Shown piece by piece: positions 517 to 64,000 of a stretch of 64,000 bases of DNA. The number at the start of each line of letters is the position of its first letter. The first letter of the stretch is position 1. The notes under the pieces are model-generated. The model saw nothing but the letters and a program-made list of their open reading frames with translations. It was not told the origin of the DNA and did not search any database. The DNA is from Fabrea salina (lineage: Eukaryota; Ciliophora; Heterotrichea; Heterotrichida; Fabreidae). The stretch covers positions 245,199 through 309,198 of the forward strand of contig JALIHJ010000016.1 in the NCBI GenBank assembly GCA_022984795.1, given 5' to 3'. The translations under genes and the position numbers were made by a program.

Positions 517-3291
517 ATGGACGAAAAGACTGAGTTCTTACGCAAGTCAATTCCAATAAAAGCCTTAAAAGACAAACTAAATCCTAACAGCAGTGTTCGG
601 CTTGAAAGCTTGAAACAACTCTACGAGTCACTTAAGTCAGACAGAACTATTCGGAATTCAATTTCTGAGCCGGTGTCATCGGACGAGCTCACTTACTCCC
701 AAGAAGCTGAGAGTCCTGAGTTGTTGGCTCAGTTGCACTCTGCTTTTCCCGGAAGTTCTAAGTTTGAAAGTTTTAACTCTTTTGAGAGTCCTAATTCAGT
801 TGAACGTGGAACCCAAACAGACCAGTCGAGTGAACAACTTGAAAGTTTAAGAACTCAACTGAAAAGAGTCACAGAAGATTACCACTGCTTAAGAAAAAAA
901 GTTCAAGAGGACCTAGACAAATTTAACTTGGAAGTTTATGAACTACTGGTTTCATATGCCAATCCTCATAAGTCATTTCAGAAGTCCTACACAGTCGACT
1001 GCACCAGTAACTCTGGGTTTGTAGGGAGCTTTGCAACTCAACAAAAAGAAACACTGGAAAAAAGACGCATCTCAAAAATCAAGAGTTCTAGAGAAAATTT
1101 CATGAAAAAGGTAAAAACTTTAGAACGAAATGGTAAAGTTTTTGACGGGCCTAAAGAGTCCCCCAAAGAAGAAGAGTTCCCAATCAAAAAGAAAAAAACC
1201 AATGTAAAAGATGTTGGAAATGAAAAAGAACCCAAGAAAAAGATTCTTGACTTTGACTCTTCAAGTGATGAGTCAGAGTCCCAAGAGTTCCCTAAAAGAA
1301 AAAACACTCCTATTGAAGACGCTCCTGTCTATGAAGAGTCCCAAGAGTTCCCTAAAAGAAAAAACACTCCTATTGAAGACGCTCCTGTCTATGAAGCAAT
1401 GATGACACCAATTGAGCCAACTGAACCAGAGCCACCTAAGTCCTTTATCGAAAAGAAGTTCCACAGCAAAGACCTAAAATGCGAGTCTTCTATTTCAGAA
1501 GAACCTTCAAGTGGCGAGTCCCAACAGTTCCCCAAAAGAAAAAACACTCCTTGTGATAGAACTCGACACAGCCCAACTGACGACGAATTCCAATTACTCC
1601 AAAAAACTAAAGAAAGAAGATACACTTCTGATGCTAAGATGAAAGCAAGGGTAATGCCAACCAAACCAACTGAACTAGAACCTAAGTCCTTTATCAAAAA
1701 GAACTTCGACACCAAAAGCCTAAAAAGCGAATCCTTTATGTCTATTAGCTACGAAAAACTACCTGAAGCCCAAAAACTGAAAACTGAACTCATAAAACTA
1801 GAAAGCAAACTAGAAGCCTTAAACTCAGAACTCAAAGACAAAGACCTACAACTCACTGAAGCTAAAAACAAACTACAGCAACTAAAAACCCAAAAAGACG
1901 AACAAGAAACTGAACTAGAAAACTTTAAACTAGACAGCAAAATAACCAAAACTCACTTAGAAAAAGAAAACCAAAAACTCAAGTCAGACTACGAAAGCTT
2001 ACTAACCAAAACGCACAAACTCAAAGAGAAACTTAAAGAAGCACAAAACAAAAACCAACAACTCAAGAGTTTTGCAGAAGAGTACCAAATCAAGTACTCC
2101 TACATAACAAAATCCAAAACCAAAACAGAAATGCAACTCAAAAGCAAAGCCACTGACAAAAAGTTAATAGCTGAAGAAAACAAGAAGCTGAAAACTATGA
2201 TCGAAGAACTACAAATTGAAAACCAAAAACTAGAACAAAGAATTGAAGAACTGTCCTCAGAAACACCAGACAGCTACCTTCCAGAACTAGAGTCTCTGCT
2301 TCAGAAAGCTCAAAACGAAAACGAGAAACTCAAAGAAGAACTTTTGAACAAACAAAAAGAACTTAGTGACCTCTCCTCAGAGCACTCTGAGTTACTAGAA
2401 AAGTGCAAACAAATCAACAGTCACAAGGAAACTCACCAACTACTCCTCAAAATGAACCAAGAACTACAACTAGCCAAGCAAAAAGAAAACGACAAAATAC
2501 TCGTTATACAAGACATGGAAACCCAAATAGAACAACTGCAAGCAGAATTTGACTTTGAAAAAAGGAAACACTCAGAAGTACTTCAGAAGTACTACGAACT
2601 CAAAAACAACTACAAAGAAGTTTTTGTAAACAGTGATGACTCTCAAAAACTTAAGTCACTCTCTAAAAAAACCCAAAAGTACTCCCAAGAAAACTCCAAG
2701 TTGAAGGACCAAATAAGTGACTACCAACAAAAGTTAGCCCAAAAAGAAAACAAAATCAAAGACTCCACAAAAACTATTTTTGTCCTTGAAAAGAACCTTA
2801 AAAACTTCTCTCAAGAAAAAGAAAAGCTCGCTAAGCATTACCAAGCCCAGTTGTCAGACCTAAAAACACAACTTTCAAGGGAAAAAGCCAAAAACCAAGA
2901 ACTGATCAAAAAAGTAGACAAACTCCAAAAAAAACTAAGCAACTACGAAGCTTCACTGGAAACTATTTCTACAGAGGGAAACAGAAAGTACTCAGTTACA
3001 GAATCTATTGAGTTCATCAAAGAATTTATAAACCTACAAACTTCTAGACTGCAAAAAATCAACCAAAAAAGACGCTTCTTAGAAGACTACTTCAGCGAAG
3101 TTAACTTCTTGACTGTTGAGAACCAAGAGTTCTTAGACGGAATAGAAGATCTCCAAAAAGAAGTTTCTATCCTGGAAGAGCAGAACTCGCTTAGTGAGAA
3201 GAACGTAGACCTTGAAAAGCTCCTTAGAAACAAAACTGAAGAAGTTGAAATACTAAAGTCAGAAATCCAAAAACTCAAAGAAACTGAATAA
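517..3291 (+). CDS. Long coiled-coil protein with Ser/Lys-rich N-terminal half
   Basis: This encodes 924 residues, starting MDEKTEFLRK. The ATG at 517 is chosen over the in-frame upstream GTG because it follows the usual A/T box. Residues ~1-410 are low-complexity, rich in Ser, Glu, Lys and Pro, with repeats of the type ESQEFPKRKNTP; two copies are an exact 60-base tandem duplication and a third is diverged. Residues ~415-920 are almost uninterrupted heptad coiled coil (Leu/Lys/Glu/Gln). No enzymatic domain is visible. The same architecture is common in ciliate basal-body, centriolar or cortical fibre proteins, but nothing here fixes the location. The next gene begins 21 bases downstream on the same strand. 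Confidence 0.85.
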   Translation: MDEKTEFLRKSIPIKALKDKLNPNSSVRLESLKQLYESLKSDRTIRNSISEPVSSDELTYSQEAESPELLAQLHSAFPGSSKFESFNSFESPNSVERGTQTDQSSEQLESLRTQLKRVTEDYHCLRKKVQEDLDKFNLEVYELLVSYANPHKSFQKSYTVDCTSNSGFVGSFATQQKETLEKRRISKIKSSRENFMKKVKTLERNGKVFDGPKESPKEEEFPIKKKKTNVKDVGNEKEPKKKILDFDSSSDESESQEFPKRKNTPIEDAPVYEESQEFPKRKNTPIEDAPVYEAMMTPIEPTEPEPPKSFIEKKFHSKDLKCESSISEEPSSGESQQFPKRKNTPCDRTRHSPTDDEFQLLQKTKERRYTSDAKMKARVMPTKPTELEPKSFIKKNFDTKSLKSESFMSISYEKLPEAQKLKTELIKLESKLEALNSELKDKDLQLTEAKNKLQQLKTQKDEQETELENFKLDSKITKTHLEKENQKLKSDYESLLTKTHKLKEKLKEAQNKNQQLKSFAEEYQIKYSYITKSKTKTEMQLKSKATDKKLIAEENKKLKTMIEELQIENQKLEQRIEELSSETPDSYLPELESLLQKAQNENEKLKEELLNKQKELSDLSSEHSELLEKCKQINSHKETHQLLLKMNQELQLAKQKENDKILVIQDMETQIEQLQAEFDFEKRKHSEVLQKYYELKNNYKEVFVNSDDSQKLKSLSKKTQKYSQENSKLKDQISDYQQKLAQKENKIKDSTKTIFVLEKNLKNFSQEKEKLAKHYQAQLSDLKTQLSREKAKNQELIKKVDKLQKKLSNYEASLETISTEGNRKYSVTESIEFIKEFINLQTSRLQKINQKRRFLEDYFSEVNFLTVENQEFLDGIEDLQKEVSILEEQNSLSEKNVDLEKLLRNKTEEVEILKSEIQKLKETE
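1276..1395 (+). repeat. Perfect 2 x 60-base tandem duplication inside the coiled-coil gene
   Basis: Bases 1276-1335 and 1336-1395 are identical copies of a 20-codon unit beginning GAGTCCCAAGAGTTCCC. A diverged partial third copy begins near 1518 (ESQQFPKRKNTP). The in-frame unit and zero divergence point to a recent duplication. Confidence 0.95.
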
Positions 3292-4971: not shown

Positions 4972-6984
4972 TTAACGCCTTGAAACTCCCCAAACGTTCT
5001 TTAAACACTGTTGGAAGTACCTTTCGTCTTGTATAGTAGCTGACACACACGAGTAGTACTCTATAAACTCTTCGTCACTCACAACTTTAGACTTTAAGTT
5101 GCCTGTAAACACTTCGTGGTGGCTTTCAAAAGAGTCCAGAAAGTCGTAGTAAACCTCTTCGGAGGAGCACTTGCCACTTTTAACGTCTGGGTGCTCATTA
5201 GGGTTGAATTCTTTTTTGAGGGTTTCTACATAAACCTTTGAGTCTCCGTCCTTGTCTAGGTGCTCGAAGGCGTTCACCACTAGTTCTTTTCTTTCTCTGT
5301 TCATTTCGCCTCTGAGCCTTTTTATAATTTCTTCCACACTCACACCTCCTGACCTGTCGATGTCGCAGTACCTAAACGCAGCCTTAACTTCTTCTTCGTC
5401 TAGTTTGAGTCTGAAGTCTTTCAGGGACTTTGCAAACTCACTCGGTTCAAGCACTTGGGTTCCGTTCTCATCGTACTCTAAAAGTTGTTTCTTTAAGTTA
5501 ATGTAAGCGTACCTTCCTCTAAGGGTTATTTTCTCTCTGAGACTTGCGATTATTTGCTCCCCAGTTTTAGTAGTTTTGGGAGCTACGTTCAGCACTGGAA
5601 TCCCTGCGGCAGGAACTTCTAGTCCGTAGTTGGAGTAGCTTTTAGAGGAAGTAGACCACCCCTGAAACGAAGGAGTGGTTCCAAACGGCGCAGAGGACAG
5701 CAAAGAACCTTCTAAGTAAGCTCTGTGATGGTCCTGCAGCCACTGCTGCTTGTGGTTGGGATTAGAACTCGGAGGATTTAAGTTCCAGCAACCAAATACT
5801 ATTTCGCTGAAAGTATCGTCTGATTCCAATGTGGAGGACAGAAAAGTATAGTACTCAACAAACTCCTCGTAAGTCACTTCTTTTGAGTTTGTTAGAATTC
5901 TGTGGTGCACTTCAAAGGTATCCATAAAATCCAGCATAACTTCTTCTTGGGTCTTTTTGCCACTTCTAACATAGGGGTGCTTGTGGGCGTGGAAACTATC
6001 TTTGAGTTCATTCAGGTCAAGGCACCCTCGGGACCTAGCAAGTTTTTCCCAGGCTTGGTCAACTACGTTTTTCCTTTGAAGACTCAAACTACCCACTACA
6101 GCTTTCAAAAGCTCGTGGTACTCAGTGTAGCCTGACTGGTCAGTATCAATAGCTTCGAAAATAGAAAGGATCTCTCTATCATCAAACCCTAGTTTGAAGT
6201 CCCGACAAGACTTAGCAAACTCCTGGAAACTCAGAAACCCTGAGCAGTCATCGTCCATTACGTGAAACTGCCTAGCCAAGCCCACGACTCCTCTGAGTCC
6301 TCTAGCTTTAATTTTGTCACTGAACTTTTGAAGCATGGGTTCTGGGCTCTTGGCTTTGACTACAGGGTATTTTTTTCTAGGTTTTGGTGTTGGAAGCCAG
6401 CAGTTTTTAACTGCAAGTTCAAAGTAAGCATCTTTTTGTATTCCAGTGGAAACATAGGAGTAAAAGTCCAAAAAGGTTTCTTCTGTAACTGGGTCGCCCA
6501 TGAAAGAGTGGTGCATTTGGAAAGCGCCTAAGAATTCTTCATAGATGTCTTGAGGGTCTACTTTCCCAGCTTCTGGGTGCTGGGTTGGGTTGTACATCGA
6601 AACAAGTTGCTCAGCGTTTATTTCTCCTTGTGGCACTAGTTTCCTAAATACTTCTTGAACTACTTGCGTTCTGTAAGGACCCAGTTTCCCTTTGAGAGTA
6701 TGGATCAAGTCCATGTAGTTGACTTCTCCTGTGTTTTCAGGGTCGAAGTACCTCACTATTAAGTTTGCTTCAAGGTCGCGGATGCTAAATCTATAGTCGT
6801 AAAGTGCTTGCAGAAATTCTTCGTGAGTCAAAAGTTGGCTTTCGTAATCGTCACGAAGGCTGAAGTGACGAGTTAGTCCTAGTAAGCCTCTAAGGCCTCT
6901 TTTGAGGACTTCAGACTTGATTTCTCCCAGCAGAGTTTTGACGTGGGTTTCCTCTGACCTTGTTAGCATTCTAGACCTTTTCAT
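4972..6984 (-). CDS. Triple calcyphosin-like EF-hand calcium-binding protein
   Basis: This encodes 670 residues built as three copies of a calcyphosin-type module of about 180 residues, at about 27-200, 228-405 and 480-665. Each module starts with a RGLRG(L/V)xGLxRxF-like helix (module 3: RGRYAYINLKKQL) and contains several EF-hand loops. Good loops are DDDCSGFLSFQEF, DTDQSGYTEYHEL, DIDRSGGVSVEEI and DKDGDSKVYVETL. Module 1 loops are degenerate (DPENTGEVNYMDL lacks parts of the canonical ligand set). Calcyphosin-like proteins are Ca2+ sensors, common in ciliates and often ciliary or cortical. The start MKRSRM follows an A/T-rich stretch. The unequal quality of the loops suggests that only some bind Ca2+. 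Confidence 0.85.
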   Translation of the reverse strand: MKRSRMLTRSEETHVKTLLGEIKSEVLKRGLRGLLGLTRHFSLRDDYESQLLTHEEFLQALYDYRFSIRDLEANLIVRYFDPENTGEVNYMDLIHTLKGKLGPYRTQVVQEVFRKLVPQGEINAEQLVSMYNPTQHPEAGKVDPQDIYEEFLGAFQMHHSFMGDPVTEETFLDFYSYVSTGIQKDAYFELAVKNCWLPTPKPRKKYPVVKAKSPEPMLQKFSDKIKARGLRGVVGLARQFHVMDDDCSGFLSFQEFAKSCRDFKLGFDDREILSIFEAIDTDQSGYTEYHELLKAVVGSLSLQRKNVVDQAWEKLARSRGCLDLNELKDSFHAHKHPYVRSGKKTQEEVMLDFMDTFEVHHRILTNSKEVTYEEFVEYYTFLSSTLESDDTFSEIVFGCWNLNPPSSNPNHKQQWLQDHHRAYLEGSLLSSAPFGTTPSFQGWSTSSKSYSNYGLEVPAAGIPVLNVAPKTTKTGEQIIASLREKITLRGRYAYINLKKQLLEYDENGTQVLEPSEFAKSLKDFRLKLDEEEVKAAFRYCDIDRSGGVSVEEIIKRLRGEMNRERKELVVNAFEHLDKDGDSKVYVETLKKEFNPNEHPDVKSGKCSSEEVYYDFLDSFESHHEVFTGNLKSKVVSDEEFIEYYSCVSATIQDERYFQQCLKNVWGVSRR

Positions 6985-59822: not shown

Positions 59823-60064
59823 AGCTTTATTGGTGAAGCCATTTAATAATAACTGTAAGTAACCAGGTATACCTGTAAAAAGCTAACTAGTAATTGCAAT
59901 CAAATCCTTATACTATTCGAGTGGAGTTATGAACTCAGTAGCTCAACTCTGATCTCTTGTCAATGCCCTTTTCTAGGATAGCTAAGTGTTTAACTGTGAG
60001 AAAATGCTCAATTAGTTAGTCTTCGAAGTCTTCAGGTCTCTGACAAATTTACTAATATTTATAA
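59823..60064. other. Intergenic spacer, 242 bases
   Basis: A/T-rich. It contains a short palindrome GAGTTATGAACTC near 59924 and ends TACTAATATTTATAA before the ATG. No RNA gene seen. Confidence 0.4.
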
Positions 60065-62053
60065 ATGAGGTACTTCATAAAGCTGCTGTCTCTGCCAACT
60101 CCATTTTCCTCTGCTTCGTTTATGCTTGTGCTTGACTCCAAGTGCTACCTGTTCAATGTAGGAGACGGGCTCCAAAGACTAGCTGCAGAGCACAAAATCA
60201 AACTAGCCAAAATTTCAGACTTGTTTTTGACTTCCACCCACACAGACAGTCTTTCAGCACTTCCTGGAATTATGTTGACTCTTGCAGACTCAACAGAAAC
60301 CAAAAGGAAACTCCACGGACCTCCTGGAATTTCAGCTTACTTTGCTGCAGCATCCACGTTTGCTCACTACAAAGACTACAAAGTTTGTGAGTACTCTTCT
60401 TACAACCTTGAAATCGATCCTTACAAAATAACCTCTAAAGGCAAGTTCCAAGACGAAAACATCACAGTAAAGGCTATTCCAGTTTACTCCTTCCAGAAAA
60501 CCAGTGTTGAAGTAAAGCCTGGAGTTTGCTTTGACGCTCCCAAAGAGTCAGGAATGTGCTACATTGTTGAGTGTCCTCAAGAACAAAGAAAGTTCAGAGT
60601 AGACAAAGCAAAGGAACTAGGAGTCACTCCAGGTCCTATGTTCGGCAAACTCAGCAGTGGCCAGAGTGTTGAAGTCAACGGAGTCTCTGTGCACCCTGAA
60701 GACGTTTTGGACCCGCCCATTCCTCCTCCTGTGTTCAGTGCAATTCACTTTCCTTCTACAAACTTAATTAACGAAGAAGTTTTTCGTCAGGTTCTCAACT
60801 ACACAAGCCCAGAGTGGTCCTTGAGCACCATCATCCACCTTTCCCCAAACGAAGTTTTGCAAACAGAGTCTTACAGAAAGTTCCTAGCTGAACTCCCACC
60901 AATTGTCCAAAACATCGTTTTGAACGAAACAGCTAGTTCCCAAGACAGAGAGTTTCCGATTTTCATGCACTCAGACATTTTAGTTTCCAAGTTGAAGGAA
61001 GCAGCACCTTCAATATTTAGTTTGCCTCAAAATCCAGAACTCACCCAACTCCACCCAAGCGTTCCTAACTCCATCCATCCTAAGTTTTTGATGAACATCC
61101 ACTTGAGTCCCTTCAGACACAAAGGAGTAGAATACTTGCAGGTCAGAACTCCGTCAACTAAGTTGCATAGACTCCAAGTTAGAGACACTCCACCTGCAAC
61201 TGAACACCACCAAGAGTCTTACTGGGACAAAGTTACTTCACACATTCCAAACAACGACCCAAGTGTTTTGTTGCTGGGAACAGGGTCTATGAAGCCCGGA
61301 AAGTACAGAAACGTCTCAGGGATCTTCTTGGGAAGCACCAGTTCTGGCATTTTAATGGACTGTGGCGAAGGAACCTATGCGCAACTATTTAGGCACTTTG
61401 GAAGTAGTATTCAAGAAGTTTTGCTCAACTTAAAGGCAGTTCTTGTAACTCACTTGCATGCAGACCACCACTTGGGAATTATAAAGCTACTTCACGAAAG
61501 AGCCAAACTAACCTCTGAAAGCATCAAAGTCATAGGCCCTTCTGACTTCTACACTTACCTTTCTGTGTGCAACTTGCTTACTGGTCCCCTCCACTTTAGT
61601 TTTGAGCAATGCAAACCCAGACACTTGCTTTTTGACTTGGTTGTTGAGTCAGTTCCTGTAGATCACAGAATTGAAGCCTACGGTTTCGTAGTAACTCACG
61701 ACTCTGGCTGGAAAGTAGTTTACTCTGGAGATACTCGCCCTTGCAATGCCTTAGTTGAAGCTGGCAAGGACGCAACTCTTCTAATCCACGAAGCCACATT
61801 TGAGGACGAACTAAAGCAAGAAGCCTTGCACAGATTCCACACTACTATTGGAGAAGCCATTGAAGTAGCCCAGAAGATGAATGCCTGGAAACTAATGCTG
61901 ACCCACTTTTCCCAAAGGTATGCTAAATTCCCAGAAACTGGTGAAGTAGACTATGTACTTGGGTTTGACTTGATGTGTTTTAGAATGTCCGAAGTTCACA
62001 CTGCAGTCCAAGCCATGAATGCTTTAGCAAACATTTTTGAGTCAACAGACTAA
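60065..62053 (+). CDS. ELAC2: Long-form tRNase Z (ELAC2/RNZ2 type)
   Basis: This encodes 662 residues: two beta-lactamase-fold halves as in the long form. The N-terminal half is inactive-looking (LFNVGDGLQRLAAEHKIKL, then FLTSTHTDSLSALPG in place of HxHxDH). The C-terminal half has the catalytic set: GTGSMKPGKYRNVSG (PxKxRN loop), THLHADHHLG (H463, H465, D467, H468), YSGDTRP, LIHEATFED and LTHFSQRYAKFP. The enzyme cuts the 3' trailer from tRNA precursors in nucleus and/or mitochondria. The start sits behind ATATTTATAA; no clear transit peptide. Confidence 0.93.
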   Translation: MRYFIKLLSLPTPFSSASFMLVLDSKCYLFNVGDGLQRLAAEHKIKLAKISDLFLTSTHTDSLSALPGIMLTLADSTETKRKLHGPPGISAYFAAASTFAHYKDYKVCEYSSYNLEIDPYKITSKGKFQDENITVKAIPVYSFQKTSVEVKPGVCFDAPKESGMCYIVECPQEQRKFRVDKAKELGVTPGPMFGKLSSGQSVEVNGVSVHPEDVLDPPIPPPVFSAIHFPSTNLINEEVFRQVLNYTSPEWSLSTIIHLSPNEVLQTESYRKFLAELPPIVQNIVLNETASSQDREFPIFMHSDILVSKLKEAAPSIFSLPQNPELTQLHPSVPNSIHPKFLMNIHLSPFRHKGVEYLQVRTPSTKLHRLQVRDTPPATEHHQESYWDKVTSHIPNNDPSVLLLGTGSMKPGKYRNVSGIFLGSTSSGILMDCGEGTYAQLFRHFGSSIQEVLLNLKAVLVTHLHADHHLGIIKLLHERAKLTSESIKVIGPSDFYTYLSVCNLLTGPLHFSFEQCKPRHLLFDLVVESVPVDHRIEAYGFVVTHDSGWKVVYSGDTRPCNALVEAGKDATLLIHEATFEDELKQEALHRFHTTIGEAIEVAQKMNAWKLMLTHFSQRYAKFPETGEVDYVLGFDLMCFRMSEVHTAVQAMNALANIFESTD

Positions 62054-62063
62054 AATAATTAAC

Positions 62064-62886
62064 ATGGACCCTAGTTTCTGTAAGTGAAAATCAGACCATT
62101 AGAGTTGGAGAACTCATACACCTTCCAACAAACATCAGGCCTTAGTTAGAAACTTTCAAGTTCTTGACTCACAAAGAGACCATTGCAGTTGCAAGAGTCA
62201 ACACCCAGTTTATGAAGCTTCTTTCAGTCAAAAACTATGTGGAGTGCCTTTACTTGAAGAAACTTTGAGGGATCACACTGAGTCTGTTGAATCAGTAGCT
62301 GTATCAAAGGACAAGCAGTTCATAGTTTCCGGAGACAGAAATGGGGTAATCATAGTTTGGGACTTTAAAACTAGAAAAATTGGAAGGTGGATGTTTCATC
62401 AGTAGCTATTTCAACCAGTGGTAAGTTCTTTGTTTCTTGTGGCTGGAATAGACTTGTTAGTGTAGAGTCTCACTGAGAGAAAACAATCAAAGTTTCTCTG
62501 GACGTTGTGGAAACTGTTGCCATTTAACGAAGAATTTATAGTTTCGGAGCCAAGGATAGCACATTTAGGGTGTGGAAAACAAACTTGTTAGACCATACAG
62601 GAAGTGTTTGTTCAGTTGCTGTATCAAGCAGTGACCACTTAGTAGTTTCTGGAAGTGCGACTATTAGAGTGTGGAACTGCTTCTGGAACCTAACTTTAGT
62701 GCCACCCTTACACAGTCGGTGCAGGTCTCAAAGGGTGTTTGTAGTTTCTGGATGACACCATTCTAGTGTGGAGTAGTTCACTTTCAATCAACAACTTATA
62801 CTTAGCTTCTGCAAGGACTAGTCAAGAAGTTCGGTCTTTCAGACTGCACTTCTGGTGTTGTTTCAGTTGAATTTGTTGAACCGTAA
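62064..62886 (+). pseudogene. Decayed F-box/WD40 paralog
   Basis: Homology to the intact gene at 58.8 kb can be followed in several frames. SVSENQTIRVGELIHL corresponds to its first blade, FKFLTHKETIAVARVNTQFMKL to its F-box, DHTESVESVAVSKDKQFIVSG...VIIVWDF to blades, and DHTGSVCSVAVSSSDHLVVSGSATIRVW and TSGVVSVEFVEP-stop to the end. Multiple frameshifts and stops (for example near 62081, 62401 and 62524) break it, and it is about 200 bases shorter. The ATG at 62064 and its A/T context survive. Clearly non-functional as a full protein. Confidence 0.88.
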
Positions 62887-63585
62887 TAATTCTTCACCTA
62901 GCAGGAGTTGTCTTAAGTTACTGAGCTTCTATAGTTTTCAAAGTTCTGGCATACTCAATAAACTTATACAAATTACTCTGTTTTCTCGAATTAACCTAAT
63001 GTGCTGTTTTTGTTAGTTATTGCACTACTGCTTTTCAAGTTTAAGTATTCCTTTGACTTTTGCATTCCTGAACTTGCTGCTATAAAGTTCCTCTACTAAG
63101 ACTCGTATTCTAATGAAGTCTATGAGTACAGTTGTTCATTGCTAGAGTATTTATGATTGCTTGTAAGTTCCATCCTAAGCACCTATAGGGTCCTTTAGAA
63201 ACCCCAAGTAAGAACCAGTTTAGATCTGTGTACTCTTCAATGCTAAAGCTTTGTTTTCTATCTATTGTTGAATTAAGCTTCTCTGACTTTATAGGAGTTC
63301 TAGTTTGTAAATAGAATGAGTTAGGTATAACTATTGTCTTACTCCTCACTTTAAAGTTCCAGTAGTGCTTTATTATAGCTTCAAGAACCTAACTAACAAC
63401 ACATAGTACTTAAGACCAATAGTTAAATAAACAAGAAGTCTTAGATTCTTTCTCATAGTTTCCGTAACCAACTACTTTTGCCTTAGTGAATGAGTTCCTG
63501 CAATATCTCAACTACCTAGATTTCTTACTCCTAAAACTTAATTGCTGCCCCTAAATTTACCACCATTTTCCACCTCCCATTTATA
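62887..63585. other. Gene-poor subtelomeric region
   Basis: About 700 A/T-rich bases with no convincing coding frame; the longest, on the minus strand near 63110-63349, begins with GTG and looks accidental. No satellite repeat or RNA gene was recognised. It contrasts with the 2-40 base gaps elsewhere. Confidence 0.6.
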
Positions 63586-63681
63586 ATGCAAGCCAACTGT
63601 CCTTCAAAGTGCCAAGCTATCTCCAAGTGTAGCTGTGGAGAGTTATTATGTGAGCATTTGTTTAGGGTGTTAGGGTGTTAG
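63586..63681 (+). pseudogene. 5' end of a Cys-rich gene cut by telomere addition
   Basis: ATG 63586 has the full start context CATTTATAATG. The frame codes MQANCPSKCQAISKCSCG and continues ELLCEHL up to base 63660, then runs into the telomere and stops at TAG 63679-63681. C5, C9, C15, C17, C22 and H24 look like the start of a B-box or similar zinc finger. About 25 codons are natural sequence. It is best read as the first exon of a gene whose rest was removed when the chromosome end was formed. Confidence 0.65.
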
Positions 63682-64000
63682 GGTGTTAGAGGTGTTAGGG
63701 TGTTAGGGGTGTTAGGGTGGGGGTGTTGTTAGGGGTGTTAGGGTGTTAGGGTGTTAGGGTGTTAGGGTGTTAGGGTGTTAGGGTGTTAGGGTGTTAGGGT
63801 GTTAGGGTGTTAGGGTGTTAGGGTGTTAGGGTGTTAGGGTGTTGAGGGTGTTAGGGTGTTAGGGTGTTAGGGTGTTAGGGTGGGTGTTAGGGTGTTAGGG
63901 TGTTAGGGTGTTAGGGTGTTAGGGTGTTAGGGTGTTAGGGTGTTGGGGTGTTAGGGTGTTAGGGTGTTAGGGTGTTAGGGTGTTAGGGTGTTAGGGTGTT
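63662..64000 (+). repeat. Telomere, (TGTTAGGG)n
   Basis: About 40 units of the 8-mer TGTTAGGG (CCCTAACA on the other strand). The chromosome-proximal ~80 bases are irregular (GTTAGAGG, GGGTGGGGGTGTTG, extra G); the rest is near-perfect, with a few variants near 63844, 63881 and 63943. Orientation, G-rich strand towards the 3' end, marks the right end of the chromosome. The array runs to the edge of the window. Confidence 0.98.

Follow-up and report, generated by a model that had tools for sequence, protein, structure and literature searches.

The window analysed here, a stretch of 64,000 nucleotides from Fabrea salina, covers bases 245199-309198 of a contig (C11) of 309,198 bp, so that its base 64000 is the right end of the contig; the whole genome assembly comprises 18,328,466 bp (18.33 Mb) in 103 contigs. 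Open reading frames in the window reach 1,059 aa under translation table 11, and Fabrea is described as using the canonical genetic code in the excerpted text of PMC10553269. The contig ends in a telomere whose repeat, TTAGGGTG, has as its complement a permutation of CCCTAACA, the telomere repeat given for the heterotrich Blepharisma (PMC9942806). The window thus has two heterotrich traits, a telomere of the CCCTAACA type and the standard stop codons, neither of which is specific to Fabrea salina. Its last 4 kb contain the following features:

60053 to 62315, + strand: 2.26-kb segment, with a duplicate at 96.5% identity toward the right end of contig C8 (stretch L094, 355-2603)
60065 to 62053, + strand: intact tRNase Z gene of 662 aa, with no further long open gene between it and the telomere
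62250 to 62677, + strand: decayed WD40 remnant in two frames, with stops (tblastn pieces, best E 1.4e-7)
62467 to 63585, + strand: subtelomeric segment that recurs at 11 further contig ends; at 4 of these a telomere interrupts it
63579 to 63585, + strand: A/T box ATTTATA, directly 5′ of the ATG, also found in the C84 and C33 copies of the gene
63586 to 63663, + strand: first 26 codons of a gene of a Cys/His and WD40 family, truncated by the telomere; 100% match to residues 1-26 of the C84 gene
63662 to 64000, + strand: telomere, (TTAGGGTG)n with irregular units, 339 bases up to the end of C11; the TT at 63662-63663 is common to gene and telomere

A gene start next to the telomere

An earlier note on this DNA had described a gene start lying directly against the telomere, with the same A/T box as the genuine genes of the window and a zinc-finger-like pattern of residues (C5, C9, C15, C17, C22 and H24). 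The telomeric repeat does begin right after the gene start and runs from 63662 to the end of the contig, and all six residues stand at the positions claimed. The ATG at 63586 opens the translation MQANCPSKCQAISKCSCGELLCEHLF, followed by RVLGC and a stop, both already within the telomere, and the first codon to differ is codon 27, which reads AGG in C11 but GTG at C84 and C33. Since residues 1-26 match a full-length family gene at 100%, this gene start is a real copy of the family and not a chance reading frame. Each 8-base telomere unit holds a TAG and shifts the frame from one repeat to the next, and therefore the C11 piece can encode a peptide of at most 31 residues, to which a Pfam search assigned no family. 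The likeness of the upstream box to that of other genes was also borne out: the 8 bases before the ATG have an A/T content of 0.875, compared with a mean of 0.85 before 45 open reading frames of the window, each of at least 150 codons, and of 0.58 before 500 random ATGs. A TATA-like hexamer from a chosen set occurs in the 14 bases 5′ of the ATG in 12 of these 45 frames, versus 2.8% of the random ATGs.

The complete gene and its family

The complete gene expected elsewhere in the genome was found at the right end of contig C84, where it encodes a protein of 446 residues. The protein begins with a Cys/His stretch and has seven WD40 stretches, and its middle part resembles a coiled coil by eye. 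At the C84 end, 350 bp separate the last residue of the gene from a telomere of about 1.3 kb. Continuing copies and homologues of the gene start are both numerous in the assembly. When the 125 bases from 63541 to 63665 were compared with the genome, 30 places matched, 18 of them at 88-100% identity (the window itself included), and a search with the first 156 residues of the C84 protein gave at least 135 family matches, a lower bound with 150 of 154 candidates scored, which merge into 123 places.

The N-terminal stretch follows a spacing conserved in the family, C-x3-C-x5-C-x-C-x4-C-x-H-x4-H-x4-H. Conservation was counted on 28 aligned N-terminal stretches from the loci retrieved, with duplicates collapsed and 10 partial HSPs set aside, and is high for the cysteines (C5 in 27/28, C9, C15 and C17 in 28/28 each, C22 in 25/26) as well as for the histidines (H24 in 24/25, H29 in 24/24, H34 in 23/24). 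The last two of these histidines, at positions 29 and 34, fall past the junction, and the Cys/His stretch of the window copy is incomplete. The spacing may resemble that of a B-box zinc finger, and we do not class the stretch as a B-box on this likeness; among 25 of the 52 Pfam families listed for the full-length 446-residue protein, there was no B-box. One member inside contig C24, 64 kb from the contig end (stretch L012, 3135-4496), joins the family N-terminus to TPR and not to WD40 repeats, and the N-terminus is therefore a module shared between different proteins. A literature search, with subscription papers mostly outside its reach, found no description of a tip-facing Cys/His and WD40 family, and a search on Fabrea and WD40 returned nothing.

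Members of this family are concentrated near contig ends, with 65 of the 123 places lying at most 10 kb from one, where 11% would be expected, a count inflated by contig ends that are not telomeric and by near-duplicates. Of these end-proximal places, 56 face the tip, and among the 58 places farther in, 31 face the nearer end. We surveyed 72 ends that have a telomere in the sampled sequence, mostly on contigs where the family had given matches. The tip sample is likewise not random, with contigs of the family match list supplying 33 of the 40 short tips on the left and all 20 on the right, and consists of stretches of 751-1,651 bases plus one of 7.6 kb. Among the 60 short tips, 34 reach the junction, 18 are filled by telomere so that a gene would not be visible, and 8 have no telomere. 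A family HSP (E 1e-6) is present at 20 of the 72 telomeric ends, and in 17 of these 20 the forward HSPs end 41-479 bp before the telomere. The remaining three are the left end of C36, with an HSP 4,336 bp off, the right end of C74, with an antisense N-terminus, and C11, the only end of the 72 with a forward N-terminal HSP that stops 1 bp before the telomere. The survey also made visible a C-terminal family piece at the left end of C64, too weak to pass the E 1e-6 cut-off. At the left tip of C34 (stretch L044), a WD40 family piece of 62 residues stops 142 bp short of the telomere and is possibly a second cut copy.

The orientation of the family, together with the intact A/T box of the window copy, could suggest that the C11 end is a functional unit, in which a gene start kept at the tip drives transcription into the telomere or makes a small Cys/His peptide. 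This is hardly credible, given that just one of the 20 ends with a family match is of this kind, that the window copy has lost two conserved histidines, and that its frame runs into a telomeric stop after 31 residues.

A subtelomeric segment with five telomere positions

Upstream of the gene start, the C11 end is a patchwork. The 2.26-kb duplication carries a second tRNase Z copy near the right end of C8 (L094, 367-2355), whose frame is also open. A genome search for a second contig on which the C11 end runs on led to this duplication, which departs from the window sequence at 62315; in that search, no contig appeared on which the upstream sequence proper to C11 extends beyond 63663.

Counting the window, 12 contig ends carry the 1.1-kb segment that precedes the gene, as recovered with a query of 1,511 bases (window 62060-63570) that matched from 62467 onward. 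Additional matches of this query comprise a 294-base piece inside C26, its first 256 bases on the right side of C8, and short pieces of its last 67-104 bases or of WD40 sequence. The segment continues into the gene at seven of the 12 ends (C8 left, C52 left, C33 right, C51 left, C48 right, C26 right and C41 left) and is cut by a telomere at the other five (C36 right, C41 right, C15 right, C74 left and C11 right). The five cut points all differ, four of them falling at query positions of about 809, 1215, 1406 and 1420, and that of C11 lying 93 bases beyond the query; C11 is the only one of the five with its telomere inside the coding part, and a cut at the gene start was seen only there among the ends examined. 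Stops or broken frames mark five of the continuing copies (C52, C48, C26, C51 and C41 left), which may be decayed or poorly assembled, and the C33 copy loses its frame near the end. Because most continuing copies have broken frames, the notion of a complete family gene rests on other copies such as that of C84. On the left side of C8, the 3′ end of a large-subunit rRNA gene (C8:5200-5950, stretch L033, also L005; Rfam RF02543, 764.8 bits) ends about 1.1 kb beyond the family N-terminal match, and it is thus rDNA, and not a telomere, that closely follows this family copy.

In the assembly, the telomere of C11 is joined directly to internal, here coding, sequence, and telomeres occupy differing positions in equivalent sequence, on five homologous ends of separate contigs and not at one locus. 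The suggestion of the earlier note that breakage and telomere addition took place within a gene, at an imprecise site or as one of several alternative ends, is supported, within the limits of a single assembly, by the complete copies elsewhere and by the five differing telomere positions in homologous sequence. In our main reading, to which we give a probability of about 60%, the C11 end probably arose by de novo addition of a telomere, at no specific site, within a subtelomeric segment that many chromosomes carry. This segment contains a multicopy gene, which begins about 1.1 kb in and faces the tip, and at most ends with a family match the telomere lies past this gene. At C11, the break would have fallen at codon 26-27 and left only the gene start; it may have been made or trimmed during macronuclear development, with telomerase presumably priming on a short T/G overlap, of which 2-4 bases are found at four of the five junctions.

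This overlap between genomic and telomeric sequence is TT at C11, TGTT at C36, GT at C15 and TT at C74. By simulation, 16.7% of junctions would share 2 bases or more by chance, and finding this at 4 of 5 has a P of about 0.003. However, the script found no overlap at the right junction of C41 (-6), which counts against the main reading.

Possibly inherited ends and recent exchange

The same junctions could have a germline history. A germline chromosome end would then have broken in the subtelomeric gene, been healed by telomerase and become fixed, this terminal deletion being copied since into every macronucleus. Two pairs of ends share a junction, C24 right with C41 left (identical over 2,183 bp) and C52 left with C26 right (95.4% over 3.1 kb), which counts against unspecific addition at these ends; because of them, some telomere positions look inherited or duplicated, be it in the ends or in the assembly. 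The C11 segment is moreover an outlier, with 9.6-13.4% substitutions relative to the 11 others, which differ mutually by 0.2-8.7%, as would befit an old copy on its own path, and the 96.5% identity of the tRNase Z duplication on C8 fits germline exchange among ends. There is also a precedent in Tetrahymena, where, in the excerpted text of PMC6564038, fast-evolving young families with LRR, TPR and WD40 as main domains are subtelomeric and pericentromeric, with WD40 and TPR families enriched near the ends and centromeres of germline chromosomes; in contrast to that case, the Fabrea ends are probably those of macronuclear contigs, and their genes mostly face the tip.

Nevertheless, at least one truncation is recent. 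Up to its telomere, the right end of C36 is 99.4% identical over 510 bp to the left ends of C8 and C52, both of which continue, with 2 mismatches and 1 gap in either comparison, and this near-identity to continuing copies indicates that the cut is young. The 160-200 bases that adjoin the C11 telomere also speak against inheritance: they are about 91-98% identical to other copies, closer than the segment upstream of them, and were therefore recently exchanged. With its tRNase Z duplication, segment and final bases all shared with other ends, the C11 end has been pieced together. On balance, we regard inheritance of the C11 junction as unlikely, though the strongest competitor of de novo addition.

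Irregularities of the assembly

Telomere arrays also occur inside contigs, at C77:57476-58070 (595 bp) and C19:285082-285525 (444 bp), corresponding to positions 2477-3071 of stretch L010 and 6083-6526 of stretch L017. On the distal side of the C77 array, other sequence abuts directly, and both arrays are possibly misjoins or chromosome fusions. The left end of C24 (L020, 1-5123) has telomeric runs mixed with other sequence over 5 kb at the contig end. Because of these three regions, misjoins near telomeres are possible. The left and right ends of C39 (L023 and L024) are inverted copies of each other, 99.6% identical over 6.2 kb.

Such irregularities, namely the internal arrays of C77 and C19 and the 5-kb mixture of C24, raise the question of whether a few noisy or chimeric telomeric reads finished the C11 contig, the real chromosome running on through the gene. 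The irregular telomere units of C11 would agree with this, and so would the right end of C48, which stops within the gene with no telomere. Yet four other ends are cut likewise, at different points, and the 2-4 base overlap at four of the five junctions is what telomerase priming would be expected to leave. As for its noise, the C11 telomere has 17.7 unit interruptions per kb, which falls within the range of 0-32.5 of the other 35 ends measured. An artefact of this kind thus seems quite improbable. A noisier telomere was also considered as a mark of cut ends and rejected, with 10.1-22.4 interruptions per kb at the five cut ends versus 0-32.5 at the 31 others.

Loose chromosome ends in ciliates

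Loose formation of chromosome ends is already known in ciliates. A close likeness is with Blepharisma stoltei, a heterotrich with the same CCCTAACA repeat and with telomeres at many internal positions, for which 46,705 potential alternative telomere addition sites are reported in the excerpted text of PMC9942806; there, however, the evidence comes from reads at single loci, whereas in Fabrea it comes from comparing, within a single assembly, homologous segments of separate contigs. In Paramecium, telomere addition is often spread over 1-2 kb, with alternative sites 2-13 kb apart (PMC7599177, as excerpted), and about 30% of the addition sites of Paramecium bursaria are given as lying in coding regions (PMC7702705). 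Variable addition and alternative ends are thus common to Paramecium and Fabrea (PMC7599177, PMC7702705), the cut gene of Fabrea being a member of a subtelomeric family and known from an assembly. In Tetrahymena and Euplotes, according to the same excerpts of PMC7599177, de novo telomere addition likewise follows fragmentation of the chromosome, but the breakage is sequence-directed, while the Fabrea positions differ among five copies of one segment.

A bolder idea, which we consider very unlikely, is that the tip-facing family is expendable and would buffer chromosome ends, with imprecise macronuclear breaks falling in it and sparing single-copy genes; cut copies that retain their promoter, such as that of C11, would be transcribed directly into the telomere and make telomeric RNA. 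What the assembly suggests, as far as a single one can, is that a chromosome broke and received a telomere within a gene. The C11 end would then offer a worked case of loose end formation in a very compact ciliate genome, with five telomere positions in one segment. Many contig ends of Fabrea carry members of a large and mostly tip-facing gene family, and gene starts annotated at contig ends may accordingly be truncated copies of it.
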